Shown in pieces: positions 8,413 through 33,510 of a stretch of DNA of 43,793 nt (positions within the stretch are counted from its first letter, which is position 1; each line of letters starts with the position of its first letter). A program made the position numbers and the translations under genes. The notes beneath the pieces were generated by a model. It was not told where the DNA came from. It made no database searches and saw only the letters and a program-made list of their open reading frames with translations. The DNA comes from a virus, in the IMG/VR virus record IMGVR_UViG_3300021479_000034, positions 1 to 43,793 of that record. The stretch is one strand, 5' to 3'.

Positions 8413-8850
8413 ATGCGCAAGTGGGCTATCGCAGCTTTAATTTCCGGTCTTCTTTTGTTGCCGTTGCTGCCGATGGCGTTGAAGGCGCAGGAGAACACGC
8501 TAGGATACAACAACAGCTGCGGACAGGGGCTTGTTGCCGGATGCGCGCTGAAGACCGCGGCTGGCAAGGCGTTTGCGATCCGCGTTACCAATTGGGGCGC
8601 TGCCAACGTCGTGTTCGTCGTCGATACGAACGCAATCCCGACATCGCCTAGCACTGTCGTACAAGTCATGTCGTTTCCGATGGCGGTAGGCACGGTGACG
8701 GTGCCGACGCAATTGACGATCCCGTTTTATCCCGACGCGCTGCTGTTCACCAAGGGCATCGTGGTGCTCTGCAGTTCGACCGGCATATCGGGCGGTGTGC
8801 CGACATACACGGCAAGTGCAACTTGCACGTTTGAAGCGGAGACGCAGTGA
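8413..8850 (+). CDS. Exported cysteine-containing protein, unknown function
   Basis: I chose ATG at 8413 because AAGGAG (8401-8406) lies 6 bases before it; the in-frame ATG at 8407 is too close to that site. The 145-residue protein opens with a classical Sec signal: MRKWAIAALISGLLLLPLLP then MALKAQ. The mature part has four Cys (SCGQGLVAGCAL, VLCSST, ATCTF) and beta-type segments such as FAIRVTNWGAANVVFVVD. It belongs to a group of signal-bearing proteins within this virion module. It may fold with disulfides in the periplasm. Position between portal and endolysin leaves its role open. Confidence 0.75.
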   Translation: MRKWAIAALISGLLLLPLLPMALKAQENTLGYNNSCGQGLVAGCALKTAAGKAFAIRVTNWGAANVVFVVDTNAIPTSPSTVVQVMSFPMAVGTVTVPTQLTIPFYPDALLFTKGIVVLCSSTGISGGVPTYTASATCTFEAETQ

Positions 8851-9431
8851 TGGAGATCAATTTCAAGCAGTCGCTCGCCTGGGTGCGGGTGTCGGAGACC
8901 GGGCACACTGACAGCGATACGGACAACACGGCACATTGGGGTAACGGGGACGATCCTGCCGACAGTGGCGGACGGACGTCGCGGGGCATTACGCAGCGGG
9001 AGTTGAACGCGTACTGCGAGATGGCCGGGCTGAAAGAGATCGACGTGTACACGGCGCCGAACCCGGTTGTCGATGACATCTATCATCGATCTTATTGGTT
9101 CCCATACTGCCCGACGATGCCGCCGGGGATCGACTACATGCTGTTTGACGATAGTGTTCTGTCCGGCCCCGTGACGGCGATAAGAACTTTGCAGCATGCG
9201 CTTGGCGTTGATGCTGACGGGCACATTGGTGTGATCACAAGCGGTGCGCTGAGCAAGGCTGATCCGGCCCAGTTGATCGACAAGATTGCCGGCATGCGGA
9301 TTGCGCGGTACGAGGCAATCATCCGCGGAGCGCCGAAAGACTTGAAGTTCGAGAAAGGCTGGGACAATCGGGTGTCGTTCGCGATGCACAACGCCCATAC
9401 TTTGGTGAAGCTAGATGCTGGAGTTTCTTGA
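8850..9431 (+). CDS. Endolysin, GH108-type muramidase with peptidoglycan-binding domain
   Basis: A 193-residue protein; ATG at 8850 overlaps the previous stop as TGATG (a GTG at 8847 is the alternative). The glycosidase core has a Glu at residue 16 (VRVSETGH) followed by the DPADSGGRTSRGIT pattern, as in glycosyl hydrolase family 108 (TtsA-like) muramidases, where this Glu is catalytic. The C-terminal half from about 110 resembles the family's peptidoglycan-binding domain (AIRTLQHALGVDADGHIG). It would cut the murein backbone at lysis. There is no signal peptide, so a holin or other membrane partner is needed; the next gene encodes one. Confidence 0.88.
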   Translation: MEINFKQSLAWVRVSETGHTDSDTDNTAHWGNGDDPADSGGRTSRGITQRELNAYCEMAGLKEIDVYTAPNPVVDDIYHRSYWFPYCPTMPPGIDYMLFDDSVLSGPVTAIRTLQHALGVDADGHIGVITSGALSKADPAQLIDKIAGMRIARYEAIIRGAPKDLKFEKGWDNRVSFAMHNAHTLVKLDAGVS

Positions 9432-9627
9432 CGCTTTACTTCGTTTCATGAGCGCAGCCTGTGCGCTGGGAGCGATGATTGTTGGGATAAGAAACACCCG
9501 TCGCATCCGCGAAGTCCACATCATGATCAATAGCCGGATGGATCAACTATTGGTCGCCAGCGGGCTGGCATCCAGAGCTGAAGGCGTCGAACAGGGACGT
9601 AAGGAAGTAGCAAACACCCCCGATTGA
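9415..9627 (+). CDS. Small membrane protein next to endolysin, holin/spanin candidate
   Basis: A 70-residue protein overlapping the endolysin gene by 17 bases. One hydrophobic segment lies at about residues 10-26 (LRFMSAACALGAMIVGI), followed by basic TRRIRE and a polar helix with HIMINSRMDQLL. A single membrane helix with a long cytoplasmic or periplasmic helix fits a pinholin-like or i-spanin-like lysis partner. Similar peptides with an INSRMDQLL-like segment are found beside phage lysins. Its exact role cannot be decided from the sequence. Confidence 0.65.
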   Translation: MLEFLDALLRFMSAACALGAMIVGIRNTRRIREVHIMINSRMDQLLVASGLASRAEGVEQGRKEVANTPD

Positions 9628-9640
9628 CTTTTTATATAAA
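9624..9640 (+). promoter_or_regulatory. TTGACT + TTTATATAAA element, copy 4
   Basis: A 102-base gap separates the lysis genes from the scaffold gene. It holds TTGACT (9624-9629) next to TTTATATAAA (9631-9640). The same combination TTGATC plus TTTATATAAA occurs at 20187-20203. Both follow a stop codon and precede a structural gene, which suggests an internal late promoter or regulator site. A short inverted repeat GACGG/CCGTC follows at 9668-9684. Confidence 0.45.
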
Positions 9641-9729
9641 CAGTTCCAAGATGAACCGTTTTCGACTGACGGGCGTAATCCGTCCCTCGCACCGATCGAC
9701 TTGCTGGCCGTTAGCCGCTGGAGGAGAGA

Positions 9730-10491
9730 ATGGCAGATCCTAAAGACGACGTGATGCCCGAAGATGAGCGCATCGAAGAACCAACGGTTGACGATGACGA
9801 GACAGTTACCGATCCAGTCGATGAAGGTGACGAGCCCGCCGAAGGTGATGAACCCGAAGGTGATGAGCCCGCTGAAGGCGATGAGCCGGCTCCTCCACTA
9901 TCTCGCGCAGAGCGTCGCGTGGCTGCTCTCGCCAATGAAAAGACCCGGCTTGCCGAAGAGAATGCCAGGATCACTCGCGAGCTTAACGAGCTTCGCAGCC
10001 GGCCTCCAGCTCAGCAGCAACCTCTCCTTCCCCAGGAGACCCCGCAGCAGCGCGCGGATCGTCTCGCGCTCATGTCTCCGGAAGACCGGATGCAATACCT
10101 TCTCGATGAAGGTCTCAACCGCCATCAGCAGCAGACCAATCAGGTCATGTCGCAGCTCATGGATCAGGCCGATCGCACGGCTTTTGAAGCCAAGGCTGCT
10201 TCCAACCCCCTTCTCAAGAAGTTTGCAGCTCAGGTCGAAACAACGCGTGTCAGCCTTGCCCAACAAGGACGCATCGTCGATCGGGACACCATCGCAAAAT
10301 TTCTTATCGGTCAGCGCGTGCTCGAACAGCAGGGCAAGACCAAGCCTGCGGTACGGGAGCGGCAGCGGCAACAGCGGGCGCGTCCTGCACAGGGTGCGGG
10401 CGACGTGCAATCCAATCGGCGCGATCGTGGACGGCAGACAGGCGACGCTGCCGCCGATATGGAGGCACGTTTCGGGGACGTACCAATTTAA
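9730..10491 (+). CDS. Scaffolding protein
   Basis: A 253-residue protein with GGAGGAG before ATG 9730, directly upstream of the major capsid gene. The N-terminal quarter is very acidic and has a GDEP(A)EGDEP repeat (residues about 33-56). A coiled coil follows (ERRVAALANEKTRLAEENAR and on), then Gln-rich helical segments and a basic C-terminus with QRQQRARPA. Acidic start, coiled-coil body and basic tail are typical of phage scaffolds, whose basic end binds the capsid protein. It would be absent from, or processed in, mature virions. Confidence 0.85.
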   Translation: MADPKDDVMPEDERIEEPTVDDDETVTDPVDEGDEPAEGDEPEGDEPAEGDEPAPPLSRAERRVAALANEKTRLAEENARITRELNELRSRPPAQQQPLLPQETPQQRADRLALMSPEDRMQYLLDEGLNRHQQQTNQVMSQLMDQADRTAFEAKAASNPLLKKFAAQVETTRVSLAQQGRIVDRDTIAKFLIGQRVLEQQGKTKPAVRERQRQQRARPAQGAGDVQSNRRDRGRQTGDAAADMEARFGDVPI

Positions 10492-10533
10492 CGGGGCGGC
10501 GGTTATTCGCCGCCGTAGCACTGGAGAACGGTG

Positions 10534-11877
10534 ATGGCGACGAACACTGCTGCACAATTTGCCGGCGATATCAGTCCGTACATTGCGGCGAAGACCCTTC
10601 CCCTCGCTCGTCGGCAGCTGGTGGTTTATCAGTTCGGTGATCCGGCTACGCTACCCAAGGGAATGGGTACGACCTACACTGCGAGCCGCTACAACCGCGT
10701 ACCACTGCCGTTCGCTCCGCTCGCTGAAGGCGTTCCGCCGGTCGGTCAGACCATGACCTTGCAGCAGGTGTCTGCGCAGGCCCAGCAATGGGGCGACAAG
10801 GTCACGATCACTGACGTGGCCGAGATGACGATCAAGCATCCGCTGTTCAAGAAGGCGATCGAGCTGGTTGCGCTTCAGCTGGCGGAAACCATGGAGCGCA
10901 ACACCTTTGTTAACCTGATGGCGGGCGCGCAGATCAATTATGTCAACAGCCGCGGTTCTCGCGCCAGCCTTGTGGCCGGCGACGTGATCAATCCCCACGA
11001 AGTCAACCGCGCCAACGCGATGCTGGAGAACCTCGGTGCTCCTCGCTATATGGGCGACGAGATTACCGACATGAAGATCGATGCCGACGCGGGCGGATCG
11101 AAGGCATCAAGCAACCCACGCAAGATGCCTCACTACGTGGCGGTCGCGCATCCGTTCGTGATCGGGGACTTCAGTGAGAACCAGACCGTCATTACGGCAT
11201 GGAGCTATAGCGATCTCAATCGTCTGTACAACTACGAGGCCGGCGAGTGGCGCGGCATCCGTTTCTGCAAGTCCAACCTTGTCCCGACGTGGACCGGGTT
11301 TGCGGCGCCTACCAATCCAGTAGGCGTCGGCGGCGGTTCGTTGACGAACGCGAACTACTTTATCGTGATCACGGGCTCGGACACGCAGAACCAGTACGAG
11401 AGCCAAATCTACGCGGTTACGACCGGCGTTAATCCCGGCGCCAATGGCGCGTTGCAAATTACCACACCGAACGTGGCAGGCTTCACGTACAGCATCTACA
11501 TTGGTTTGACCAATACGCCGTTCAATTTGGGCGTGTCGGCTCAAGGTCCGACTGCCGGGCCGCTGGCCGGTCAGGCGACGCAAATCCCACCCAACACTGT
11601 CGTGACGATTACCGCGCTGGGTGTTTCGCAAGTTCCGCCGGCAAATCCGAATACCGGCATCACGGTGTATCCGACATTCATCTTCGGGCGCGGATCGTAC
11701 GCGCAAGTCGTGCTCGACAATGTCAAGTTCACCTACCTCAAGGAAGCTGACAAGAGCGATCCGCTCAATCAGCTCCGTGTGGTGGGCTGGAAGAATTTCT
11801 ACGGAACCCTCATTCAGAATGCGCAGTTCATGCTGCGTCTGGAGAGCACTTCCGCCTTCAACGCAACCTTCGGCTAA
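10534..11877 (+). CDS. Major capsid protein, N4-gp56 type, with inserted beta domain
   Basis: A 447-residue protein; ATG at 10534 has GGAG at 7 bases. The N-terminal 250 residues match the N4-gp56-like capsid family: LARRQLVVYQFGDPATLPKG, GTTYTASRYNRVPLP, the EMTIKHPLFKKAIELVALQL helix, and an EAGEWRGIRF strand. From about 260 to 375 comes a Gly/Thr/Pro-rich beta segment (ANYFIVITGSDTQNQYESQI, QITTPNVAGFTYSIYIGLTN) not expected in the fold. The typical core then resumes at TVYPTFIFGRGSYAQVVLDN and ends with a KNFYGTLIQNAQFMLRLES strand. The insertion is probably a surface-exposed Ig-like or FN3-like domain. Confidence 0.9.
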   Translation: MATNTAAQFAGDISPYIAAKTLPLARRQLVVYQFGDPATLPKGMGTTYTASRYNRVPLPFAPLAEGVPPVGQTMTLQQVSAQAQQWGDKVTITDVAEMTIKHPLFKKAIELVALQLAETMERNTFVNLMAGAQINYVNSRGSRASLVAGDVINPHEVNRANAMLENLGAPRYMGDEITDMKIDADAGGSKASSNPRKMPHYVAVAHPFVIGDFSENQTVITAWSYSDLNRLYNYEAGEWRGIRFCKSNLVPTWTGFAAPTNPVGVGGGSLTNANYFIVITGSDTQNQYESQIYAVTTGVNPGANGALQITTPNVAGFTYSIYIGLTNTPFNLGVSAQGPTAGPLAGQATQIPPNTVVTITALGVSQVPPANPNTGITVYPTFIFGRGSYAQVVLDNVKFTYLKEADKSDPLNQLRVVGWKNFYGTLIQNAQFMLRLESTSAFNATFG

Positions 11878-11887
11878 GGAGGCTGAA

Positions 11888-12163
11888 ATGGCTTACCGGC
11901 TTACGTATCAAGTGCAAGTGGACTGGATTGGTCCGGGCCTGGGTCCGATGGGCGGGGCGCTTGCCCCGGTGGTTTCGCTGGCACCGGCCGGCGGGGGACA
12001 AACCCTCCAGTTGAATAATGTGGCCGGCGGTCAGAATAGTCAGACGTTCACGGGCACCGACGTCACGAACTTGACCAACGCCATGGCTGCCGACATCGCA
12101 GCTCAGCTCAACGTGGCTGCGACGCTGGCGCGCATTCAGGCATTCTCGACCGGCACGGGGTAA
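11888..12163 (+). CDS. Small head-region protein, unknown function
   Basis: A 91-residue protein with AGGAGG 5 bases before ATG 11888, right after the capsid gene. It begins MAYRLTYQVQVDWIGPGLGP, passes through a Gly/Ala-rich section, and ends in a helix (NAMAADIAAQLNVAATLAR). Its position after the capsid suggests a head decoration or completion protein. I recognise no family. Confidence 0.7.
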   Translation: MAYRLTYQVQVDWIGPGLGPMGGALAPVVSLAPAGGGQTLQLNNVAGGQNSQTFTGTDVTNLTNAMAADIAAQLNVAATLARIQAFSTGTG

Positions 12164-12166
12164 GTC

Positions 12167-12466
12167 ATGGCGACAGGTACTGTCGGGACCAACGCGACAA
12201 ACTCGCTCACGATGAAGCTGTTTGCTGGAGCGCTGTCTTCCGCGGATGTCGCGGCGATTGCAAACGCAGTCAAGGACGACGTCAACAATCTGCATCCGAT
12301 CTCGCCGGGTGCGTGGTCACAAAGCGGGACGCTTTACGTTCCCAACCGCGGCGTGCTCAAGGTGCTCCCCGGTGACTGCGTTGCTGTTGACGCAACGACG
12401 GGATGGCCGATCCTGATATCTGCCCGCGCGATAGCGAGTGGACCCTGGACACACGTAGGGAGTTGA
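12167..12466 (+). CDS. 99-residue head-region protein, unknown function
   Basis: ATG at 12167 follows the previous stop by three bases. Two parts can be seen: a helical N-terminus (LFAGALSSADVAAIANAVKD), and a beta-rich C-terminus (SGTLYVPNRGVLKVLPGDCV, then GWPILISARAIA). The latter pattern, with VLPGD and a strand ending in a hydrophobic tail, is often seen in small capsid-associated proteins. No family assigned. Confidence 0.7.
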   Translation: MATGTVGTNATNSLTMKLFAGALSSADVAAIANAVKDDVNNLHPISPGAWSQSGTLYVPNRGVLKVLPGDCVAVDATTGWPILISARAIASGPWTHVGS

Positions 12467-12468
12467 CG

Positions 12469-12942
12469 ATGGCGACGAAGAAAGGTCCGACCGAGAGGAG
12501 TATCCCGGTCAAGATGGAACTTCTGTCCGACGAGGATAAGAAGGCACTGCGCGCGGAAGCCAAGGCGTCGCTGCTTGCGGATATGAAGCAGGATGCTCGC
12601 GACGAGTATTTCGCGCGAGCCCTCAAGAAGCTTCGTCGAGAGCAGATACCGGCAGAGCAAATCGTCAATGTGTCGATGGATCTTGCGCCTTTCTTGCCCC
12701 ACGTCATGCTGGATGGCGTGATGTACTTTCATGGTTACGCGTACGATGTACCGCGGTCGCAGGCGATAGTGCTATACGAGCAGATGCAGCGCTCGTGGAT
12801 GCACCAGGACGAGATCGAGGGACGAAGCCGGTTCAATTCTTACCGCCGTCCCCAACAGCTGCGTATCGGTCCTCGGGACATGGGGACGACTACGGCAGGG
12901 GCAAACGGGCCGGTTGTGATGCCGGCCGACATGGAGATTTAA
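12469..12942 (+). CDS. 157-residue protein of unknown function in head-tail region
   Basis: I chose ATG at 12469, with GGGAG 6 bases upstream; the longer frame from 12403 overlaps the previous gene. The N-terminal half is a charged helix (KKALRAEAKASLLADMKQDA, RDEYFARALKKLRREQ). The C-terminal half has FLPHVMLDGVMYFHGYAYDV and YRRPQQLRIGPRDMG. It lies just upstream of the adaptor cluster. Conserved proteins of this kind are known in this group of phages without an assigned role. Confidence 0.7.
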   Translation: MATKKGPTERSIPVKMELLSDEDKKALRAEAKASLLADMKQDARDEYFARALKKLRREQIPAEQIVNVSMDLAPFLPHVMLDGVMYFHGYAYDVPRSQAIVLYEQMQRSWMHQDEIEGRSRFNSYRRPQQLRIGPRDMGTTTAGANGPVVMPADMEI

Positions 12943-13413
12943 ATGCTGGACAGGCCAGAAAGTCTCGATCCGGAAGCTTCGTTCAAGCAACCGGACGAGA
13001 AGGGGATAGCTGTCGCGATCACTGTCACGTCGCAAGTCGGGACCAATCGAAATATTGTGTTGCAGACTTTTATGGATCGCGATGCGCCGATCGCGGCGTT
13101 TCATGCTGTCGTGGACAAGCTTACGACGACGTCCAACCGTCAAGAGGCGATCCTGCAACTCGAAGAGGAAGAGGCGACGCTCGACCGGGTCAAGCGCACG
13201 CTGGACCAGCAGATCGCGGATTTCAATCTTGTCGAGCCGCGCGCCGAAGCCGCCTGGCAGGCGTCGGGCAAGAAAGGTACGTTCAAGATGAACCCGAACG
13301 AGATCGCCGCCAAGGAGAATTGCAAGAAGAACATCGAGCAATTCAGGTCGGCGATCAAGAAGCACGAGGAACAGATCGCAAAATATAAAGCGGTGATCGC
13401 CAAGGTGGACTGA
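12943..13413 (+). CDS. Coiled-coil protein of unknown function
   Basis: A 156-residue protein whose ATG follows the preceding stop with no gap. After a short extended N-terminus with strand-like VAITVTSQVGTNRNIVLQTF, residues 65-156 are strongly coiled-coil: AILQLEEEEATLDRVKRTLD, then NCKKNIEQFRSAIKKHEEQI. A basic loop GKKGTFKMNPNE separates two helices, so it likely forms an antiparallel hairpin. It may help assemble the head-tail joint. No family recognised. Confidence 0.7.
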   Translation: MLDRPESLDPEASFKQPDEKGIAVAITVTSQVGTNRNIVLQTFMDRDAPIAAFHAVVDKLTTTSNRQEAILQLEEEEATLDRVKRTLDQQIADFNLVEPRAEAAWQASGKKGTFKMNPNEIAAKENCKKNIEQFRSAIKKHEEQIAKYKAVIAKVD

Positions 13414-13415
13414 CC

Positions 13416-15653
13416 ATGTCGTTGACATCCGCGCAGATTGTTGCATTGGCAACGCAGGATGCGAAGTGTCCGGGGTTTACTTCGCAGGCTGGTCAGTTTC
13501 TGAATGCGACGCTGCAGGACCTTTGTCAGAACTACGATCTCGATGCTGCGCTCGGCACGTTTGTTTTCAGTTTCAATTCTGCTACGGGCCAAGGATCGGG
13601 ACCGTACAATCTTCCGGGGGACTACCTGCGTACGCAGGTGAAAGATGGCAAGGACGAGTTCTTCTATACCATCCAGGGCGTGCCTTACCCGCTGATCCAA
13701 ATTACCAAGGCCGAATACGACTGGTTGGTGCAGACGCCGGGGTTTCAGTCCTATCCATACAACTACGCGACGGACCTGTCAGTGTCGCCTGCACAGTTAT
13801 TCGTGTGGCCGCCCGCGTCGGGCGCTTACCCATGTGTTCTGCGCTACTATCGTTTGATGCCGGACATCGCGACGCCCGAGACCAGCGCGGTAGTGCCGTG
13901 GTTCAACAATACGATGATCCTGCAGCGCAGTGTCGCCGGGCGTCTTATGGGGCTGACTGGCGACGATCGCATGGAGAAGTATCTCGGTGATGACGAGGAC
14001 AGGTTTCCGCTGGGGGCCGGTACTCTACTTAAACGATATTTGAAGAACGTAGAAGATCGGGAGGGCGCCGTGCATACGGTAGGGAAAGATCGGCGTCGCT
14101 GGGGCCGTCCGTTTGATCAGTTGAAGAATACCAAGAACATCGGATGGGCTATTGCTGCGATGTTCCTTTGGTTCTTCGCTTGGCAAACGCCAGCAGAAGC
14201 CAATTGTACGGCACCTTGTACTAAGGCGCAGGTGCAGACTGACATCAACACCAATTGGCCTGACAATACGTCGGGGTTGATTACACCCGCGCTATTGCGT
14301 TCGACGGTAGGTGATCTTCTCAATTCGTATCTCGACGCCAATGGAGCGTCATCGTTCGTTTGTCCGGCAAATCAGTTTTTTACGGCTATCGCGACGCTCA
14401 GCACATACACCTGCACGCAGCCTACTTTTTCAAACATCGCCAGCATTGGTGCTGGAGTAGCAACGGCGCTGACGAATGGTATTAATACGGCGGGAGGTGT
14501 GGTGGTGCCGACCGCGGCCTTGACTTTGAATGGCGTGGTCTATGGCGGCGGGTCTGCGGTCTCGCCCGGATCGACTGCGGCAGGAACCAACGGTCAGTTA
14601 TTTCTCGGCGTAACATCAGGTGCGCCGAACTGGGGTACACTGTCCCAGGACTGCACGATCACCAACGCAGGCGTTATTACCTGCACCAAGACCAACAACG
14701 TCGCGTTTACCGCGCTCGCTACTACTGTGCCAGGAACGGGGGTGGCAGCGGCACTGGCTATTGCCGTCAACACGGCTGGGGGACCTGTGACGGGCGGCAA
14801 TGCCGTGACGTCTATCACGCCTGGTGGCGGTATTGTTTCATCTAATACGGCGGCGTGTTCGTTGACTTCGATAATGACGACGGGGACGATTTACACCGCG
14901 CGTTGTATCAATGCTCAAGTAGGTACGTCCTACGCGATTGCGGATACCGACCGAGGCAAGATCATTACGGCGTCGAATGCCGCAGCACAGGGCTACACGC
15001 TAGCGCAGGCCGGTGCGGCATCCCAGTTTCAGTCGGGCTGGTACACGATAATCCAGAACAATAGCTCTAACGTCGCGGGCATCGTTACGATCACGGCTAC
15101 GACTTCTACGTTCTCGAATACCGGCTCGACGACGATGACGATCCAGCCGGGGCAGTACGCCAAGATCGAGAGTGATGGCGCCAATTATCAGGTTGTATTT
15201 ATTGCCAACGCGCGTCAACTTCCGGGTACGGCAACCAACGATGCCGCCAATACGGGGATGCTGGGCGAGCAGATTATTTCCACGATCCCTGTAGGCTCAG
15301 CGGTAAGTCTTACGACCAACACGCCCGCGAATATTACTAGCATATCGCTTACCGCCGGAGATTGGGAATTAAGTGGGTCTATGGGTATGACCGGCGGGGC
15401 AACAACAACGGTGCAGGCGTACAGGTTTAGTTTTTCTACAAACAGCGCCACGGACAACCAAGTGATCGGTTTTGAAAATCAGCAAACGGTGCCTTCTACC
15501 ACGTTGTTTTCTTCGTTTTCTTTTGAAGCTCCAATGCCTTCTGCCCGAGTTAGCCTGTTAAGTACGACTACTTATTTTTTAGTGGCCCACGTCAATTTTC
15601 TAGTGTCCACCCTAACCGGTTACGGAATAATCAGAGCCAGGCGAGTGCGATAG
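13416..15653 (+). CDS. Head-tail adaptor fused in frame to a signal-bearing fibre-like protein
   Basis: 745 residues. Residues 1-235 resemble the P22 gp4-like adaptor family: an N-terminal helix with LNATLQDLCQNYDL, a FSFNSATGQGSGPYNLP strand region, DYLRTQVKDGKDEFFYTI, and a C-terminal VAGRLMGLTGDDR..KYLGDDE helix. At about 236-262 a typical Sec signal-like stretch follows in frame (KNTKNIGWAIAAMFLWFFAW, then QTPAEA). The remaining roughly 480 residues are Thr/Gly/Asn-rich, beta-type and carry many Cys. This half could start separately at TTG 14121 or ATG 14160, though neither has a clear ribosome site. Fusion of two genes, or a lost stop, explains the layout best. Confidence 0.75.
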   Translation: MSLTSAQIVALATQDAKCPGFTSQAGQFLNATLQDLCQNYDLDAALGTFVFSFNSATGQGSGPYNLPGDYLRTQVKDGKDEFFYTIQGVPYPLIQITKAEYDWLVQTPGFQSYPYNYATDLSVSPAQLFVWPPASGAYPCVLRYYRLMPDIATPETSAVVPWFNNTMILQRSVAGRLMGLTGDDRMEKYLGDDEDRFPLGAGTLLKRYLKNVEDREGAVHTVGKDRRRWGRPFDQLKNTKNIGWAIAAMFLWFFAWQTPAEANCTAPCTKAQVQTDINTNWPDNTSGLITPALLRSTVGDLLNSYLDANGASSFVCPANQFFTAIATLSTYTCTQPTFSNIASIGAGVATALTNGINTAGGVVVPTAALTLNGVVYGGGSAVSPGSTAAGTNGQLFLGVTSGAPNWGTLSQDCTITNAGVITCTKTNNVAFTALATTVPGTGVAAALAIAVNTAGGPVTGGNAVTSITPGGGIVSSNTAACSLTSIMTTGTIYTARCINAQVGTSYAIADTDRGKIITASNAAAQGYTLAQAGAASQFQSGWYTIIQNNSSNVAGIVTITATTSTFSNTGSTTMTIQPGQYAKIESDGANYQVVFIANARQLPGTATNDAANTGMLGEQIISTIPVGSAVSLTTNTPANITSISLTAGDWELSGSMGMTGGATTTVQAYRFSFSTNSATDNQVIGFENQQTVPSTTLFSSFSFEAPMPSARVSLLSTTTYFLVAHVNFLVSTLTGYGIIRARRVR

Positions 15654-15668
15654 AAAAGGAAAATTCAA

Positions 15669-16046
15669 GTGTCCGGCACGCTAAATTCACAGGCGATCAA
15701 GATCGCGAACGACATCGTATCTCTATCGCAGCAAATTATTTCGGTCTACCAGCAGATCGTGGCGCTTGATGCTGCGTGGACCGACACGGGGGCAGCGGTT
15801 GTTCTTGCAGCCATGACAACATCGGTTTTGAACCCGGACGGATCAATCGGGGCGCCTGACGGCACTCCTAACTCTGCGCACCCCATCAATACGTTGTTGT
15901 ATCCTCAGATGACCCAAGCTGTTTCATCAACTCAGCTTGCGCAGGCAAAGACCATTCTGGACGGCATCAGGGCCTATATTGAGGGGCAGGCTGTTGGCAC
16001 TCAAGCCGGGGCCCGCGCCATTCTAAACGCGATGATCAACGGTTGA
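15669..16046 (+). CDS. Tail-region protein of unknown function
   Basis: A 125-residue protein from GTG at 15669, with AAAGGAAAA just upstream. The first 40 residues form a Gln/Ile/Val-rich helix (IANDIVSLSQQIISVYQQIV). A Gly/Pro/Asn-rich loop follows (VLNPDGSIGAPDGTPNSAHP), then a second helix (LAQAKTILDGIRAYIEGQAV). It lies between the fibre-like gene and a holin-like gene. No family recognised. Confidence 0.7.
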   Translation: MSGTLNSQAIKIANDIVSLSQQIISVYQQIVALDAAWTDTGAAVVLAAMTTSVLNPDGSIGAPDGTPNSAHPINTLLYPQMTQAVSSTQLAQAKTILDGIRAYIEGQAVGTQAGARAILNAMING

Positions 16047-16065
16047 AATAACCAAGGGGCACCTC

Positions 16066-16413
16066 ATGTTCGGACTTACCAGCAAACAGTGGTTTCAGAT
16101 TATCAGTGGAAGTATCTCGGGTTTGATCACGGGAGCGGCGCTGCTGCAAACCCTCCTGGGGCAGGACTTGACGATCAAGATTGTCGCATTCCTTGGCGTC
16201 ATCAACATCATACTAAGTTCGATCGGCGCGACACTCTCCGGTCAGGCCAATCTGGTTCGGGACGTCGCGGCCATGCCAGGCGTCGATCGCGTCAGTGTGA
16301 ATGCGCAGGCCACACCGACGTTGGCTCAAGTTGCTGTCGATCCCGCCCAGCAAAAGGTGGGGCCTACTTCTCCTGGGCTTCGCCCACAACTGGAGACCAT
16401 CGCAAAATCTTGA
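16066..16413 (+). CDS. Holin-like membrane protein
   Basis: A 115-residue protein. Two hydrophobic segments lie at about residues 10-28 (FQIISGSISGLITGAALLQ) and 36-58 (IKIVAFLGVINIILSSIGAT). A polar C-terminal half contains NLVRDVAAMPGVDRVSVNAQ, then ATPTLAQVAVDP. This VAAMPGV..V.VN..A...L..IA.DP tail recurs in small membrane proteins of alphaproteobacterial phages and prophages annotated as holins. It is far from the endolysin gene at 8850, which is unusual. Holin is the best guess, with a tail-anchor role as the alternative. Confidence 0.65.
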   Translation: MFGLTSKQWFQIISGSISGLITGAALLQTLLGQDLTIKIVAFLGVINIILSSIGATLSGQANLVRDVAAMPGVDRVSVNAQATPTLAQVAVDPAQQKVGPTSPGLRPQLETIAKS

Positions 16414-16494
16414 GCACAGTGACATCTTCGCAACAGTATCAAGTCTTGTTTCGGTCTAGCGTCTCCCCGTTCCAATCAACAAAGGGGAAGTGAG

Positions 16495-17196
16495 ATGAAG
16501 AGATTTTTGCTCGCGGCTCTGGCCGTGCTGATCACGACGGCAGCGATTGCGGCCGACAATTTGCCGACGAAGGCGCAGACCGGCTATGCAACCTACCCTG
16601 TCGGCTGCGGCATGTACTATGGCGTTAACGTCATGGGTGAGACGGCGGCAGTCAATAATGCCGCGGTTGGCACGCAGTTCGTGCAGGGCGCGATCGGTTT
16701 GACGCTCGGCTATACCTGTCCGATGGGGGGTAGCGGTGGCTACTGGTTTGTTGACGGCATGTTTGACTTCGCCAACCTCAACGGGTCGAGCAACGGGTTT
16801 GCTCTAACGGGGCCGGCACAGTTCGAACAACGCTTTGGTTTCGGGGCTCCTGTTACTCTTCTCACTAGTCTGGTGCCGGGCCTCTCGTCACTTCAGAACG
16901 CCGTTCCTTCATTGATCCCCCTACCGACGGGTGTCACGGTTGTGACGTCGTTTCCTTACCTGTTCGGTTCGATCCATGAGGACGACGTTGGCGTGTCGAA
17001 TGGTTTCACGTCCAACAAGCAGTATCTGATCTCGGCTGGCTTTGGTATTGGCAACAAGACCCGACTGACCAATGGCGTGGTGTTTGATCCGTTCGTGGAG
17101 TATATTCTTCCGTCGAGCCAGATGTGCATTGGCATCGCTGGCGGGTGTACTCAGCGCGGTGCAGCAGTTCGGGCCGGCATGGCACTCGAATTTTAA
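16495..17196 (+). CDS. Signal-bearing protein resembling an outer-membrane beta-barrel
   Basis: A 233-residue protein with AAGGGGAAG before ATG 16495. It opens with a clear Sec signal (MKRFLLAALAVLITTAAIAA, cleavage near AIAA|DN). The mature part alternates hydrophobic and polar residues in several segments (GAIGLTLGYTCP, GYWFVDGMFDFAN, QYLISAGFGIGNKTR, VVFDPFVEYILPS) and ends in GMALEF. A terminal Phe on an amphipathic strand is the hallmark of Gram-negative outer-membrane barrels. Phage barrel proteins such as lambda Lom are known, but none is expected between tail genes. It may alter the host surface or block superinfection. Two CxC-type pairs are also visible (GCGM, MCIGIAGGC). Confidence 0.7.
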   Translation: MKRFLLAALAVLITTAAIAADNLPTKAQTGYATYPVGCGMYYGVNVMGETAAVNNAAVGTQFVQGAIGLTLGYTCPMGGSGGYWFVDGMFDFANLNGSSNGFALTGPAQFEQRFGFGAPVTLLTSLVPGLSSLQNAVPSLIPLPTGVTVVTSFPYLFGSIHEDDVGVSNGFTSNKQYLISAGFGIGNKTRLTNGVVFDPFVEYILPSSQMCIGIAGGCTQRGAAVRAGMALEF

Positions 17197-17206
17197 AGGA
17201 TGAACT

Positions 17207-18874
17207 TTGGCGCTACCAGGGAAGCCCCTTGTATGGTCTCCACGAGGGGCTTCCGATACCCTCGACAGCTCAACTTCGCCCGAAGGGGTGATGACTGTCT
17301 TGAAGGATCTCGTTCCTGATCCCACCACAAAAAACCTCTGGCAATGTCGCCCTGCGGCTGTGTCGCTCGCCAATTTTTTAGGAAGTGCTTTTTCGAGCGG
17401 TTTTTCGTCGGGTTTTGGTTCGGGTGATTTTCCGGGCGCAACTTTCATCTCTTGCTTGAAGGTAATCGGCACGCGCGCCTACGGCATGGTATCGACGGCA
17501 CGCAACGCCGGACATGACGAGCCTTTTGTTTACGATATCCCAAGCGGTACTTTCGTCATCGTCTCGGGCGTGACCAACGGCAATACTCCGATGAGCCCGG
17601 CCACGACAGGAGCGTGGACCTCGCCAAACCTGGATTTGATCGGAAGCAAAATTATCATCGCGCACCCCGGTTTTAATGGCGCTGGAGCCAACTTTTTTGG
17701 CGTGATCGACATTACCAATCCCGCAGCTCCTGCGTGGTCCTCTGCTAACACGGCAACCAACGCTCTGGTGTGCCCGCCGCAGTGGGTGCAAAATTTCAAC
17801 GGGCGCTGTTTCTTCCTGTGCAATCCCAGCGGAGCGCAGCCCGGCGCCTATATGTCGGACCAGCTCAACCCCCTCAACATCACCAACGCCAGTCAGATAC
17901 TTACCTTTGGCGATAACGTGCCGTTGACGGCTGCGGTCGGTCTTCCGTTGTCCAACCAGCTCGGAGGCATCATCCAGTCACTGATGATTTTCAAAGGAGC
18001 AACCAACATCTATCAGGTGACGGGTGATTTTTCGCTTACGAACCTCGCGGTCAACGCGCTTAACGTGGCGACAGGAACTTACGGCCCTAACACGATCGTG
18101 ACGACGTCGAAGGGTATCGCATTTGCCGCGCCTGACGGAGTACGTATTATTGACTTCGAGGCGCGGGTCAGCGATCCAATCGGCAAAGACGGCGAAGGGA
18201 TAACGCTACCGTTCTATGCGGTTCTCATTCCAAGCCGCATGGCGGCGAGCTACAATAACGGGGTGTACCGCGTACAGTTGCAAAATGGCGGGGCGCTAGG
18301 CAATCCGCAGCAACAGTGGTGGTTGGATTTTGTACGCGATATTTGGTCCGGTCCCCACAGTCAGGCTGCGTCGCTGCTTCAACCGTACGCGGGCAACACC
18401 TTTATCGTGACGTTGCAGGGTGCAGGCGCCGTCTTGTTTCAGAGCGACGTGCAGCAAAGTTCTTCAAGCCAGTTTATCGAGAATGGGGTACAGTTGTCGT
18501 GGGAGTGGTCAACTCCGATGCTGCCGGACACCGATCAGATGGCGGAAGCGGCTATGGTCGAGACGACGCTGCACGCAGCTCTTGTGGCGGGTACGACGAT
18601 CACCGTTGTAGCACAGGATCAGGACGGAGCAGTGTTCGATACGGTGGAAATTATTCCGACAGGTTCATCCAGTTTATGGGGTGCTTTCAAGTGGGGGTTT
18701 GCATTGTGGCAGGGAGCGGCAAACTCTCTTTACCCGCGCCTTTTGAAATGGCATTTTCCAATCGTATTTCGACGGTTGCAAATATCGGCTTCGGCATTCT
18801 CAGCTCCCGGCATCAAGATTGGCCGGCTACATCTTCGCTACCAGGTTCTCGGTTACATACAGCAAGGAGGATGA
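17207..18874 (+). CDS. Tail protein, P22 gp10-like stabilisation/nozzle type
   Basis: A 555-residue protein from TTG at 17207, with AAAGGA 6 bases upstream; no ATG in this frame fits. It starts with a short extended arm followed by beta-propeller-like repeats. Typical segments are KVIGTRAYGMVSTARNAGHD, FNGRCFFLCNPSGAQPG, LMIFKGATNIYQVTGDFS, and an end-strand section GRLHLRYQVLGY. The size and the SDQLNPLNIT and FKGATNIYQVTGD features resemble the family of packaged-DNA stabilisation proteins (P22 gp10) and related podophage tail nozzles. It would close the portal-adaptor channel below the head. Confidence 0.65.
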   Translation: MALPGKPLVWSPRGASDTLDSSTSPEGVMTVLKDLVPDPTTKNLWQCRPAAVSLANFLGSAFSSGFSSGFGSGDFPGATFISCLKVIGTRAYGMVSTARNAGHDEPFVYDIPSGTFVIVSGVTNGNTPMSPATTGAWTSPNLDLIGSKIIIAHPGFNGAGANFFGVIDITNPAAPAWSSANTATNALVCPPQWVQNFNGRCFFLCNPSGAQPGAYMSDQLNPLNITNASQILTFGDNVPLTAAVGLPLSNQLGGIIQSLMIFKGATNIYQVTGDFSLTNLAVNALNVATGTYGPNTIVTTSKGIAFAAPDGVRIIDFEARVSDPIGKDGEGITLPFYAVLIPSRMAASYNNGVYRVQLQNGGALGNPQQQWWLDFVRDIWSGPHSQAASLLQPYAGNTFIVTLQGAGAVLFQSDVQQSSSSQFIENGVQLSWEWSTPMLPDTDQMAEAAMVETTLHAALVAGTTITVVAQDQDGAVFDTVEIIPTGSSSLWGAFKWGFALWQGAANSLYPRLLKWHFPIVFRRLQISASAFSAPGIKIGRLHLRYQVLGYIQQGG

Positions 18875-18876
18875 CC

Positions 18877-20190
18877 ATGCGACGTTTTTGGGGGGCTGCA
18901 CTGTTCTGGCTATGGTCGTCGGCTGCTTTCGCGGGCATCACCTGCTCGCTTCCGATCAATCTGCAGAATGGCACGACGGCAGATGCCACCCAGGTAATGT
19001 CGAATTTCAATACGCTCTCCGGTTGTTTTGGCAATGTCGCGGCGAGCGGGGTCAACAATGACATTACTGCGCTGGCGGCACTCGCAACCCCGATCAATAC
19101 GGTACAGGGTGGAACGACAACTTATTTCGGGGCTGTCCCTTCGACGGGATCTGCAAACGCACAGATCGTGGCGAATGTTACGCCAACGGCCTTCACGTTG
19201 AATTTCCCAAATAGTGTGGTTTTCATTGCTGGATTTACCAATACGGGTGCGACGCAGTTCAATGTCGCGGGTTCGGGGCTAACGAATGTTTTCAAGTACA
19301 CAGCCGCGGGTCCGGTTGCGCTGATCGGGGGCGAGATCGTCGCTGGTAACCTTATCGAAGCCAGTTTTGACGGTACGCGCTGGATACTGCTAGATCCGGT
19401 CACGAATTTGGCGCCTGCGTTGCCGGGGGCAATCGGTCTATCTATTGTCAATGACGGCGGCACACCTAACACCAATATCGACGTGGCCGCCGATCAAGCA
19501 GTGATGTTGAACCCGATCGGCAATCTGGCGATATACGCTTCTGCCGTGTCGGTGGTTGTAAACTGTACAACAGTGGGAGCCAACGGGCTCGATGCCGGCT
19601 CGCTTGCCATCAACACCTGGTACAATGTTTTCCTGATTTCTAACGGGGTCACGACGGCGGGGCTGGCAAGTTTGTCGGCTACGGCACCGGCAATGCCTAC
19701 CGGATACACTTATTTGCTGCGGGTGGGGGCCAGGCGTACGGATGGTTCTGGTAACTTTTTGCGCCAGCGACAGTTAGGCAGCAGGACGCAGTACGTGGTG
19801 ACGGCTGCGACCAATACGGCAGCGCTTCCTTATATATTGAGCGGAACATCCGGCAGCGTGATAACGCCGACGTGGACCGCATTTGCTGTTGCGGGTTTCG
19901 TGCCGCCAACCGCTACCGAAATAGACCTTGCCGTTACTATTCCTGATTTTACAGCCGGCGGAGGGAACGTGGTCATTGCTGCACCGAATAATTCATACGG
20001 CTCTTTCAGTTCTTCTTCAAATATCCCGCCATGCGGTTTGATTACCAACTCTGCCAGCGGGGCGCTGAGTGCCGGCGGCATGATCGTGTGCTCATTTGTG
20101 TTGGAGAGCACCAATATCTATGTGGCTTCTAATGCCGTGGCTGGCGGTGTCCAGTCCAAGGGCTGGAAAGACAAGGTCAACGCTAATTGA
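18877..20190 (+). CDS. Signal-bearing, cysteine-containing tail-fibre-like protein
   Basis: A 437-residue protein. I chose ATG at 18877 because AAGGAGG (18864-18870) is 6 bases away; the ATG at 18871 abuts that site. A Sec signal comes first (MRRFWGAALFWLWSSAAFAG), and the mature protein opens ITCSLPINLQNGTTADATQV, NFNTLSGCFGN. The rest is a Thr/Ala/Gly-rich beta structure with features of virion fibres (TPTAFTLNFPNSVVFIAGFT, FKYTAAGPVALIGGEIVAGN, FDGTRWILLDPV). Cys residues occur in several spaced segments. An N-terminal helical part similar to exported periplasmic proteins precedes a fibre-like domain. Role probably host recognition; why it has an export signal is unclear. Confidence 0.75.
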   Translation: MRRFWGAALFWLWSSAAFAGITCSLPINLQNGTTADATQVMSNFNTLSGCFGNVAASGVNNDITALAALATPINTVQGGTTTYFGAVPSTGSANAQIVANVTPTAFTLNFPNSVVFIAGFTNTGATQFNVAGSGLTNVFKYTAAGPVALIGGEIVAGNLIEASFDGTRWILLDPVTNLAPALPGAIGLSIVNDGGTPNTNIDVAADQAVMLNPIGNLAIYASAVSVVVNCTTVGANGLDAGSLAINTWYNVFLISNGVTTAGLASLSATAPAMPTGYTYLLRVGARRTDGSGNFLRQRQLGSRTQYVVTAATNTAALPYILSGTSGSVITPTWTAFAVAGFVPPTATEIDLAVTIPDFTAGGGNVVIAAPNNSYGSFSSSSNIPPCGLITNSASGALSAGGMIVCSFVLESTNIYVASNAVAGGVQSKGWKDKVNAN

Positions 20191-20203
20191 TCTTTTATAT
20201 AAA
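20187..20203 (+). promoter_or_regulatory. TTGATC + TTTATATAAA element, copy 5
   Basis: In the 52-base gap between 20190 and 20243, TTGATC (20187-20192, including the stop codon) is followed by TTTATATAAA (20194-20203). This matches the layout at 9624-9640. Probably an internal late promoter or regulator site. Confidence 0.45.
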
Positions 20204-20242
20204 TACTGCTACTGTCCCTTGAGGACCAAAGGAGAACTAGCC

Positions 20243-20782
20243 ATGTTGCGAGACCTTAAGAAGAGGATTGCTACCGCACTGTTGCTGGGAATGGCTCTCG
20301 CCGCTCCGTTGGCGATCGCAGGCGGCGTACCGCAGCTGCCGGTGACGTCGCAGTACAGCGAGCCGTCACAGATCGTCGGTACGATCAACGCGCTGATCAA
20401 TCAGCTCAACGGCAATGGCACGGGCGCGGGTGGTTATGCGACGCAACCAAACTCTGCCGTATCGCTCGGCACCTTTCTGACAGGCTCAGTCGCCTCCCCT
20501 GGTCCGCTCGTTCTCGCCTCTTATGCCCAACGCGGCATTGCCACCTTTACCGCGGCCACCGTCGCCGGCAACGCTAACCTGTCGGTGTCGATCACTGATC
20601 CCGGCATCACCACGGCATCCGTTTGCAATGCGTGGCTTGTCACCAACCCAACCGCGGGAGCCGGTCCTACCGTGTCGTCGGTGGTCCCGACCGCGAACAC
20701 CCTCACTATCCAACTGACCAACGCTACGTCCACCACCACCGGCTCGGTGACGCTGGGTGTAGGGTTCAACTGCATCCAATAA
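20243..20782 (+). CDS. Signal-bearing protein of unknown function
   Basis: A 179-residue protein with AAAGGAG upstream of ATG 20243. It has a long Sec signal: a basic MLRDLKKR start, a hydrophobic TALLLGMALAAPLAIA core and likely cleavage after AIAG. The mature N-terminus (VPQLPVTSQYSEPSQIVGTI) and following helix resemble the start of the exported protein at 18877. A Val/Thr/Ser-rich beta domain then extends to two Cys (SVCNAW, FNCIQ at the C-terminus), which may pair. It lies beside a TTTATATAAA element and could be a partner of the fibre-like protein. Confidence 0.7.
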   Translation: MLRDLKKRIATALLLGMALAAPLAIAGGVPQLPVTSQYSEPSQIVGTINALINQLNGNGTGAGGYATQPNSAVSLGTFLTGSVASPGPLVLASYAQRGIATFTAATVAGNANLSVSITDPGITTASVCNAWLVTNPTAGAGPTVSSVVPTANTLTIQLTNATSTTTGSVTLGVGFNCIQ

Positions 20783-21259: not shown

Positions 21260-21432
21260 TGGCAAAGGGATCAACCCTCGCCAGCGATGGCAACATGCTC
21301 AAAGGCTTGACCAACAAATCGCCGGCCACCCAGGACAGTTCCCGCAAGCTGGGCAAGACGAGCGTCGACAGTGAAGCAACGCGCAGCGAGACAGCCCCCG
21401 CCGACAAAACTATCGGCCCCCGCACCGCATGA
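21259..21432 (+). CDS. 57-residue Ser/Thr-rich protein of unknown function
   Basis: ATG at 21259 overlaps the previous stop as TGATG and AGGAGAAA provides a ribosome site. The peptide is polar and unstructured in style (MAKGSTLASDGNMLKGLTNK, TSVDSEATRSETAPADK). Its last 62 bases overlap the GNAT gene start in another frame. It may only be a short coupling peptide. No family recognised. Confidence 0.5.
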   Translation: MAKGSTLASDGNMLKGLTNKSPATQDSSRKLGKTSVDSEATRSETAPADKTIGPRTA

Positions 21433-21922
21433 GGCTTTGGAACCACCGAAGGTCCTGGGCGAGCATGAAGGGGTGAAGTTCAGGCGCGAGCGTTTGGCGC
21501 CGATCCTGCGCGAGATCCAGCCGCTGCTGAAGCGCGACTGGCTTGAGAACGGCATCGATCGCGAGGCGGCCCCGCTGGAGATCGACTTCGCGCGCTATCT
21601 TGATATGGACCTTGTCGGCATCCTCCAGATCATCACGGCGCGCGACGAGGAGCTTTTGGTGGGCTACGCTTTTGCCTACGTTCACCCCCACATCGATCAT
21701 TGCGGCGTTGGCTGGGCCATGCTGACGTGGTACTGGTTATTCCCTGAATACCGTCATGCCGGGATCGGCAACGCTATGATCGAGGCAATGGAGGGATTTC
21801 TGCGCGAGGCCAAGGTGTCCGTGGTCGAGGTGTCGGAGAAGATCACGAGCAAGCACGGGCTGTTCGACCGACGGGGCTACCGGGATGTGGACGTGGTGAA
21901 GCGCAAACTATTGGAGAGCTGA
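21371..21922 (+). CDS. GNAT-fold acyltransferase-like protein
   Basis: A 183-residue protein from GTG at 21371; a downstream GTG near 21473 is an alternative start. The GNAT core shows a strand (LLVGYAFAYVHPHID), the WAMLTWYWLFPEYRHAGIGN motif with acyl-CoA-binding R..G.G loop, and a final KHGLFDRRGYRDVDVVKR segment. GNATs transfer acyl groups from acyl-CoA to amines. In T7 a small acyltransferase-like morphogenesis protein (gp13) precedes the ejection genes 14-16. Here a GNAT also precedes three ejection-like genes, so a virion-assembly role may be likelier than metabolic acetylation. That parallel is inference. Confidence 0.8.
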   Translation: MKQRAARQPPPTKLSAPAPHEALEPPKVLGEHEGVKFRRERLAPILREIQPLLKRDWLENGIDREAAPLEIDFARYLDMDLVGILQIITARDEELLVGYAFAYVHPHIDHCGVGWAMLTWYWLFPEYRHAGIGNAMIEAMEGFLREAKVSVVEVSEKITSKHGLFDRRGYRDVDVVKRKLLES

Positions 21923-27147: not shown

Positions 27148-27349
27148 CGATTTCATTCCGATGTCGCAAACCTGTGCCAACTGCGGCGTGACCGTCACCA
27201 ACGACGCGGAGCTTAACGCCAGACACCCGCTGGAGTTCATCGAGGCGCTGCGCGCGAGGGGTTGGTACATCCCACTGACGCAGGTCAGCTCGCTGCCGTC
27301 GTCAGGCATCAAACCGCATACGTGCCCCAAATGCACCTCCTCATCATAG
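27140..27349 (+). CDS. Zinc-ribbon-like protein
   Basis: A 69-residue protein. Two Cys pairs, CANC near residues 12-15 and CPKC near 63-66, can bind one zinc ion. Between them is a helix (NARHPLEFIEALRARGW) and a short beta hairpin. The last 19 bases overlap the ATP-grasp gene, so the two are probably co-translated. It may act as an adaptor or nucleic acid-binding partner; no specific family is claimed. Confidence 0.7.
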   Translation: MADDFIPMSQTCANCGVTVTNDAELNARHPLEFIEALRARGWYIPLTQVSSLPSSGIKPHTCPKCTSSS

Positions 27350-28674
27350 ACCCTCACGGTGACAGCCTCGACTTCGCGATGCGATGTCAGCGCGACGGCC
27401 ACGACGTGCGACACTTCATCCGCAAGAGCGACAAGACCGAGAACATCGGAAAAGGTCTCGTCAACGTCGTGGACAATTATCGCGCCTGGTCTCGCTGGGC
27501 CGACCTGATCTTCATGGCTGACAACACGCTGTACCTGACCGATCTCGATCGGTTGCGAGAGGATGGAGCGAAGATCATCGGGCCGAGTGTTGCTGCTGCG
27601 GAGTGGGAAATAAACCGTGGTACGGGCATGGAGGTGATGAAGAAAGCCGGCATCGAAGTGGCAGACTACAAAGCTTTCAAGGATTACGACGCTGCAATTG
27701 CGTATGTGAAGCGCGAGGATCGCCGGTTCGTCTCCAAGATCCTGGATGGTGGTCACGCCGACAAGGCGCTGTCCTATTGCTCCAAATCCCCTGAAGACAT
27801 GATTTATATGCTGCAGCGCTGGAAGAAGATGCAGAAGCTGCCGGGCACGTTCATGCTGCAGGAGTTCATTCCCGGCGTCGAGATGGCGGTCGGCGGCTGG
27901 TTTGGTCCCGGTGGCTTCTCCGCAGGCTGGTGCGAGAACTTCGAGTTCAAGAAGTTCATGAACGATGACATGGGGGTGGCGACCGGAGAGCAGGGCACCG
28001 TGCTTCGCTATGTTCGCGCCTCCAAGCTCGCGCGCAAGGTGCTACAGCCCCTGGAGAGTGCCCTTGAGAAGGTTGGCTACTGCGGCTATATTGACGTCAA
28101 CTGCATCATCGACGAGCGCGGCGTACCTTGGCCGCTGGAGTTCACGATGCGGCCGGGCTGGCCGACGCTCAATATCCAGATGGCATGCCACGAGGGCGAC
28201 TGTGCAGACTGGTTGATGGACCTATGGAACGGCAAGGACGCGAGGAATTGGGTGATGAACGCGGTGGCGGCTGGCGTCGTCGTCTCCATACCCGACTATC
28301 CCTACTCGCATGCGACGAAGAAAGAAGTGGTGGGTGTACCGATCTACGGGTTGCAACCGGAGACGCTGGAGCACGTCCACTTCTGTCAGGCTATGATGGG
28401 CACGGGACCGAAGAAAATCCGCGATCAATTCCTCGACGTGCCGATGATCACGACAGCGGGGGACTACGTGCTGGTGATGAGCGGGACCGGCCACGACGTG
28501 AAGTCGGCGACGGACGCGGTCTACCGCCGCTTAAAGACATTGAGCTTGCCAAATTCCCCGATGTACCGCACGGATATCGGACAGCGGCTGAAGAAGCAGC
28601 TGCCGCTCTTGCAAGCGCAGGGCTACGCGGCAGGGATGGAGTTCTCGACACCTCTACTCAGCTTGAGCGCGTAA
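27331..28674 (+). CDS. PurD-like ATP-grasp ligase
   Basis: A 447-residue protein, close to PurD length (about 430). ATG at 27331 gives a typical start MHLLIIDPHGDSLDFAMRCQ with a Rossmann-type first strand; no strong ribosome site is visible and coupling to the upstream gene is likely. ATP-grasp signs are the lysine region FVSKILDGGHADKAL, the adenine-binding FMLQEFIPGVEMAVGGWF and the metal-binding CGYIDVNCIIDE...PLEFTMRPGWPT, equivalent to VLEFNVRFGDPETQ in PurD. It therefore resembles phosphoribosylamine-glycine ligase, which joins glycine to phosphoribosylamine in purine synthesis. The changed RPGWPT segment suggests a different substrate. Such a gene is unexpected within a late virion operon. 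Confidence 0.75.
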   Translation: MHLLIIDPHGDSLDFAMRCQRDGHDVRHFIRKSDKTENIGKGLVNVVDNYRAWSRWADLIFMADNTLYLTDLDRLREDGAKIIGPSVAAAEWEINRGTGMEVMKKAGIEVADYKAFKDYDAAIAYVKREDRRFVSKILDGGHADKALSYCSKSPEDMIYMLQRWKKMQKLPGTFMLQEFIPGVEMAVGGWFGPGGFSAGWCENFEFKKFMNDDMGVATGEQGTVLRYVRASKLARKVLQPLESALEKVGYCGYIDVNCIIDERGVPWPLEFTMRPGWPTLNIQMACHEGDCADWLMDLWNGKDARNWVMNAVAAGVVVSIPDYPYSHATKKEVVGVPIYGLQPETLEHVHFCQAMMGTGPKKIRDQFLDVPMITTAGDYVLVMSGTGHDVKSATDAVYRRLKTLSLPNSPMYRTDIGQRLKKQLPLLQAQGYAAGMEFSTPLLSLSA

Positions 28675-33248: not shown

Positions 33249-33510
33249 CGAGCATCCCCCGCACAAATTGTTCTCGTTCGGTCCAGCTCAGGTCATCCCC
33301 GATCGGATAGTAATCGGGGCGAACCCGCAAGCTGTATTCGAGAAGGTCGAGACGGTGCATGGCTCGCTTGGCCTGCGGGCCGAAGGGCTCGCGCCCCTCA
33401 ACCCAGGTGTTGACCGTCGAACGCGGGCGCCCAAACCATCGCTGCAGGTCCGAGACGGTAAACCCGCCCCGACGCCGACAATTGTTGAGCCGTTCCGAGA
33501 AAATTCTCAT
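33199..33510 (-). CDS. Helix-turn-helix DNA-binding protein
   Basis: A 103-residue protein; ATG 33510. The first half reads ERLNNCRRRGGFTVSDLQRW then FGRPRSTVNTWVEG, a helix-turn-helix in the style of XRE or small phage regulators, with R-rich recognition part. The second half is helical and acidic (DDLSWTEREQFVRGML) and overlaps the primase gene start by 50 bases in another frame. It sits upstream of the primase and downstream of the ssDNA-binding candidate. Its regulator role is inferred from the fold only. Confidence 0.7.
   Translation of the reverse strand: MRIFSERLNNCRRRGGFTVSDLQRWFGRPRSTVNTWVEGREPFGPQAKRAMHRLDLLEYSLRVRPDYYPIGDDLSWTEREQFVRGMLDDAERHYSVPDVRATA

Follow-up and report, generated by a model that had tools for sequence, protein, structure and literature searches.

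The window analysed here is a whole IMG/VR virus record of 43,793 bases. Its late region lies on the forward strand and encodes, in this order, terminase, portal, 8413 (genes are named here by their first position), endolysin, scaffold, capsid, small proteins, 13416 and 16495, followed by the nozzle-like 17207, 18877, 20243, an acetyltransferase and three large proteins that contain no Cys. The capsid matches phrog_1357 and has relatives in about 80 viral contigs and in two Paraburkholderia proviruses, the latter at 50-53% identity. The adaptor domain of 13416 scored 31.7 bits against PF24175, above the curated cut-off of 27, as would be expected of an SU10-like short-tailed phage. As 17207 had no match in Pfam or PHROG, and no useful sequence match in the PDB, it was named nozzle from the gene order and by analogy with SU10. 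The features that concern us are the following:

8413..8850 (+), predicted exported protein of 145 aa with 4 Cys in its mature part, between portal and endolysin
8413-8487 (+), signal of 8413, predicted to be cut between MRKWAIAALISGLLLLPLLPMALKA and QEN
13416..14123 (+), head-tail adaptor part of 13416, residues 1-236 (Pfam SU10_adaptor PF24175, E=2.7e-7; about 50 relatives compared)
14106..14201 (+), internal signal of 13416, residues 231-262, ending in NTKNIGWAIAAMFLWFFAWQTPAEA and followed by NCTAPC, with the predicted cut between A262 and N263
14202..15653 (+), putative fibre fused behind the adaptor, mature part, with 8 Cys and a C-terminal domain that matches tail fibres
16495..17196 (+), predicted outer-membrane beta-barrel protein, a moron gene, with a signal, 4 Cys and a C-terminal Phe
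16495-16551 (+), signal of 16495, predicted to be cut between MKRFLLAALAVLITTAAIA and AD
17207..18874 (+), putative nozzle or tail-tube gene without a signal, kept between the adaptor and 18877 in relatives
18877..20190 (+), predicted exported tail fibre, with an N-terminal domain carrying the NGTTADATQVM motif and a Cys4/Cys31 pair (mature numbering) and an exchangeable C-terminal part
18877-18933 (+), signal of 18877, predicted to be cut between MRRFWGAALFWLWSSAAFA and GITC
20243..20782 (+), predicted exported protein of 179 aa with 2 Cys, probably a third fibre or fibre tip
20243-20320 (+), signal of 20243, predicted to be cut between MLRDLKKRIATALLLGMALAAPLAIA and GG

A preliminary description of this DNA reported Sec signal-like segments in all five genes, and our signal test on the five proteins and their homologues confirmed each of them in position. 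All five have a basic n-region, a hydrophobic core and an AxA-type site with small residues at -3 and -1. Signals were called in every slot by one home-made rule, which combines the n-, h- and c-regions with a (-3,-1) test and is not SignalP, and its error was estimated from control slots. By this single fixed rule 104 of the 118 homologues in the five slots were signal-positive (8413, 5/5; 13416, 11/13; 16495, 4/4; 18877, 71/83; 20243, 13/13). In the control slots the same rule called 0-10% of the homologues (terminase, 0/20; portal, 0/24; capsid, 0/58; adaptor, 1/71; nozzle, 4/64; scaffold, 3/31), and the enrichment in the five slots is far beyond chance. Within the 18877 family the sequence of the signal diverges freely and its signal properties are kept. 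Short-tailed phages insert hydrophobic proteins into membranes at entry, and the N-terminal segments could accordingly be hydrophobic anchors that stay on a virion protein, for example for contact with the host membrane, rather than export signals. We consider this most improbable, as the cleavage-site residues at -3 and -1 are conserved in an otherwise diverging segment, and as the parity of the Cys and the coupling of the Cys pair, described below, are unexplained without export. Among 72 ORFs of IMG/VR that carry the general fibre motif the rule called six, of which three belong to the 18877 family and one was clearly called in error, so the export of fibres seems to be special to certain groups.

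The mature parts contain 4 (8413), 8 (13416), 4 (16495), 5 (18877) and 2 (20243) Cys, and the scaffold and the capsid have zero and one, respectively, nearly none, as had been described. Proteins oxidised in the periplasm tend towards even Cys numbers. After reduction at 70% identity 96 signal-bearing proteins remained, of which the 72 with one to eight Cys were scored for parity. The number was even in 67 of these 72 versus 96 of 249 signal-free neighbours, and with one member per family it was even in 31 of 37 versus about 35 of 93 (Fisher p=2e-6). Fibres that unrelated phages make in the cytosol included 19 with an even and 26 with an odd number (19/45). The five Cys of the window's own 18877, an odd number, count against the pattern.

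Signal and Cys could be followed together in the N-terminal domain of 18877. Among 121 copies, 87 have a signal and a pair of Cys about 27 residues apart, 11 have the signal only, 23 have neither and none has the pair only; a frameshifted-looking copy (L184) was left out, and a few signals missed by the strict rule (L170, L176, L180) were assigned by eye. The 11 signal-bearing homologues without the pair count against the coupling. Homologues without a signal have their first residue precisely where the mature protein would start, and the pair is missing from them. A tree built from the short domain gave about 15 signal changes, and on its well-supported branches there were three independent comparisons of signal and pair, none discordant, which are too few for significance. 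Losses of Cys are joint as well: the 16495 homologue of L004 has none left, and the N-domain pair is missing as a whole in L035, L037, L045 and L046. A matched case is provided by the slot upstream of the scaffold, which in the Paraburkholderia proviruses holds a fibre-like Gly_rich_2 protein: the P. tropica protein has a signal and four Cys, the one of P. phenoliruptrix has no signal and no Cys, and the two are 58% identical over their C-terminal 207 residues. The P. tropica protein (strain LMG 22274) starts with MKKLF and would have its mature N-terminus near QSYPSP, and the same provirus has a signal-less fibre in another slot (L182).

Based on the parity, the coupling and the matched Paraburkholderia pair, we judged that the signals are used. 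They look functional, and the sequence patterns strongly support the export of the proteins. The parity and the signal/Cys coupling lend the same strong support to the earlier proposal that the exported proteins form disulfides in the periplasm. We infer the actual removal of the signal peptide, to which the parity adds indirect support. Disulfides could also arise in the medium after lysis, possibly as in Agrobacterium phage Milano, whose virion has an extensive disulfide network and whose main text is silent on signal peptides and the periplasm (PMC10811340); the signals would then serve another purpose or be leaky. Such late oxidation is very unlikely, since the even Cys numbers and the pair follow the signal, signal-free homologues are without the pair, and unrelated cytosolic fibres show no even excess. 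Milano resembles the window group in having many-disulfide virion proteins and is a phage of Rhizobiales, but in Milano it is a contractile tail that the network holds, and the main text speaks of no export signal (PMC10811340), whereas the Cys of the window group track signal peptides.

Judged by its sequence matches, 18877 is a modular tail fibre. The profile of its family matches the SU10 tail fibre 7z47_D (E=7.9e-9 over 30 residues), with which 18877 has the motif GANSDITSLxGLTTPL in common, and the solved tail fibre 8vbx_R (E=2.9e-4 over 70 residues). The N-terminal 170 aa or so are common to the family and the C-termini fall into many tail-fibre PHROGs. An AlphaFold2 model reached a pLDDT of 89, and matches in BFVD include tail-collar and tail fibres. 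In a Foldseek search of the PDB no match had an E under 0.001 and only the Pa193 tail fibre, aligned over 97 columns, stood out; PDB sequence searches with the adaptor, the nozzle or the window fibres alone gave nothing useful. We found no named phage with a homologous N-domain or with the Paraburkholderia signal-bearing fibre. Neither virion proteomics nor a cultured member whose fibre bears a signal came to light, which counts against exported fibres. In named phages that have homologous C-domains the fibre is without a signal; as these C-domains work without signals elsewhere, export is unnecessary for fibre function in general.

The N-domain of 18877, with signal and Cys pair, is also found in secreted proteins of bacterial genomes (L168, L169, L170, L172, L176, L177, L179, L180), where one to four such proteins in tandem adjoin proteins of 750-2000 aa. 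Two of these large neighbours were scanned and contained RHS repeats and a C39-peptidase-like domain.

The main rival to exported fibres is that the exported proteins are fibre-like but not virion parts and that their placement in the periplasm or outer membrane masks receptors, excludes superinfecting phages or stops progeny from binding to cell debris. The occurrence of the 18877 N-domain in bacterial secreted proteins beside RHS-repeat proteins would fit this, with no match to a window-type capsid in the five such genomes searched, as would the neighbouring 16495, an outer-membrane barrel moron of the Lom/Ail type. However, the genes fill the fibre slots beside adaptor and nozzle, and no signal-free fibre candidate was seen elsewhere in the window's late region. 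In the Paraburkholderia proviruses the same slot, behind the nozzle gene, is taken by signal-less versions of the same N-terminal domain, and the matches of the C-terminal parts are spread over many different families of tail fibres. A role as surface or exclusion proteins thus seems unlikely to us.

The preliminary description took 13416 as one exported protein, and the fusion of an adaptor and a fibre was missed. In most relatives the adaptor ends with LKNTKxIGW and a stop codon; in about 40 relatives its end falls on IGW or directly behind it, and the next gene follows at once. The gene right after the adaptor in close relatives is a separate signal-bearing fibre that begins at the window's internal signal, and the one of L004 shares 65% identity with the beginning of the fused half in the window. 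The C-terminal domain of the fused fibre has matches among the tail fibres of BcepC6B and of podophages of Klebsiella and Pectobacterium. Four lineages are without the stop and have adaptor and fibre in one frame, with the AxA site kept in all four. An assembly artefact was rejected, as independent contigs of four lineages are without the stop. For an internal start of the fused fibre (TTG in the window), the four fused lineages share no start codon at this point; a GTG further upstream could serve as a start but is present in unfused genes too.

The C-terminus of the SU10 adaptor is threaded between portal subunits (PMC9509320), and the fusion must therefore be cut or read from an internal start. 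The awkward fit of a fusion with an SU10-type adaptor C-terminus threaded into the portal counts against exported fibres. Unfused adaptors of L018/L019, L038, L064, L069 and L081 carry a mostly hydrophobic extension of 19-26 residues past the conserved IGW, and seven of eight distinct extensions reach a hydrophobicity met by 15% of read-through controls. These tails hint that an adaptor carrying such a remnant can work. Several unfused relatives (L064, L069, L081) have them, and 13416 could be a polyprotein matured by the host signal peptidase, the fibre half passing into the periplasm and the adaptor being held in the inner membrane by its hydrophobic tail; tails would then be built at the membrane, with the fibres waiting opposite. 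We regard this polyprotein as distinctly unlikely.

Neither 8413 nor 20243 matched a Pfam or PHROG family. Six members of the 8413 family all have even Cys numbers, and 8413 was present in only 7 of the 84 loci compared. Even Cys numbers were found throughout the wider family of 20243 (37/37), and as there was no profile match we assign its probable role, a third fibre or fibre tip, from its position. The fibres of the set would then be 18877, the second half of 13416 and, probably, 20243.

The AlphaFold2 model of 16495 has eight strands (pLDDT 68) and its Foldseek matches were NspA, OmpA, OprF, OmpX and Ail; no Pfam family matched. Copies with 64-86% identity were found in five unrelated phage contigs without the other four genes. 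The eight-stranded barrel, the aromatic end and the signal are those of OmpX, Ail and Lom, and judging by the model 16495 is an outer-membrane barrel of the OmpX/Ail kind. Unrelated phages carry it as a moron, and it probably alters the cell surface. It shares the barrel, the signal and the place in the late region with Lom/Ail/OmpX proteins, phage morons included, and differs from them in its four conserved Cys and in having no Pfam match to any such family. Its sequence presumably resembles Rhizobiales AADLPxKA outer-membrane proteins. In lambda, the genes for tail spike and tail fibre lie on either side of lom (PMC12309495). Near a copy of the 16495 barrel in a different phage, three consecutive signal-like proteins are encoded (L187:3807-6468), so that the exporting group may not be alone.

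The five genes had been viewed as a set that could form an envelope-located assembly and whose co-occurrence should be sought in other phages. This view is not supported: a single complex of five in the envelope was rejected because of the presence of 16495 alone in unrelated phages and the rarity of 8413. What the window holds are fibres, an outer-membrane moron and 8413, with no strict co-occurrence.

Taken as a whole, the observations are probably best explained by fibres with cleavable Sec signals that undergo oxidation in the periplasm and join the tails at lysis. A group of short-tailed phages with an SU10-like adaptor, the window phage among them, would make their tail fibres with such signals; the fibres would pass through the inner membrane, have the signal removed and acquire their disulfides in the periplasm, while heads and tail cores would be assembled in the cytoplasm as usual. 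Lysis would mix both pools, and the fibres would dock on adaptor and nozzle and be stabilised by their disulfides outside the cell. 16495 would travel along as a separate outer-membrane moron. The sequence evidence shows the conserved signals, the Cys pairing tied to export, the fibre identity of 18877 and the barrel fold of 16495. The earlier suggestion of fibre parts collected at lysis is thus the mechanism that we prefer, its export and oxidation being strongly supported and docking at lysis being the step that we infer. In T4 and P22 fibres or spikes are attached to finished particles. In SU10 the fibres are attached to the outer side of the adaptor and the nozzle (PMC9509320); a finished tail can thus in principle accept fibres late, which favours export, oxidation and docking at lysis. 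Like the window phage, SU10 (Kuravirus; adaptor gp11, fibres gp12/gp13/gp16, nozzle gp17) has a PF24175 adaptor and fibre genes both beside the adaptor and beside the nozzle. The window group differs in that a Sec signal and paired Cys are found in almost all fibre slots, export being unmentioned in the passages of the SU10 study that were covered (PMC9509320), and the window phage in that one fibre is fused to the adaptor.

An uncultivated soil phage group that includes the window phage thus appears to put working-looking export signals on its tail fibres, which would fold with disulfides outside the cytoplasm. In filamentous phages the host exports the coat and minor coat proteins and cleaves off their signals, and these proteins assemble at the inner membrane without lysis. 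The window phage would share with them the host-exported virion proteins with cleaved signals, but its capsid, portal and scaffold are signal-less and it has an endolysin gene. One survey found phage DGR target proteins to be without signal peptides (PMC6199706). A Klebsiella dsbA screen was set aside as support, its result being explained there by host surface effects (PMC13412088). A limited search of the open-access literature turned up no description of a tailed phage that exports its tail fibres, which is weak evidence that such export is new. The usual assumption for tailed phages is that tail fibres are built and attached within the cytoplasm, and a phage gene with a signal peptide can easily be mistaken for a moron. 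If whole groups of soil phages do export their receptor-binding proteins, there would be a second assembly route with a step at the time of lysis, host Sec, signal peptidase and disulfide enzymes would be host factors of the phage, and disulfide-hardened fibres would become available for study. A signal together with an even Cys number offers a simple genomic test for more exported fibres.

The acetyltransferase inside the virion module (21371-21922, +) is of the GNAT type and has 25 homologues in the fetched loci. An ATP-grasp protein similar to phosphoribosylglycinamide synthetase (27262-28674, +) lies on the late-gene strand and is kept in the Paraburkholderia proviruses. The reverse strand (-) encodes an SNF2-type helicase (35441-37063), a DUF927 protein (30387-33266), a C5 cytosine methylase (29411-30481) and a DNA polymerase A (38872-40206).
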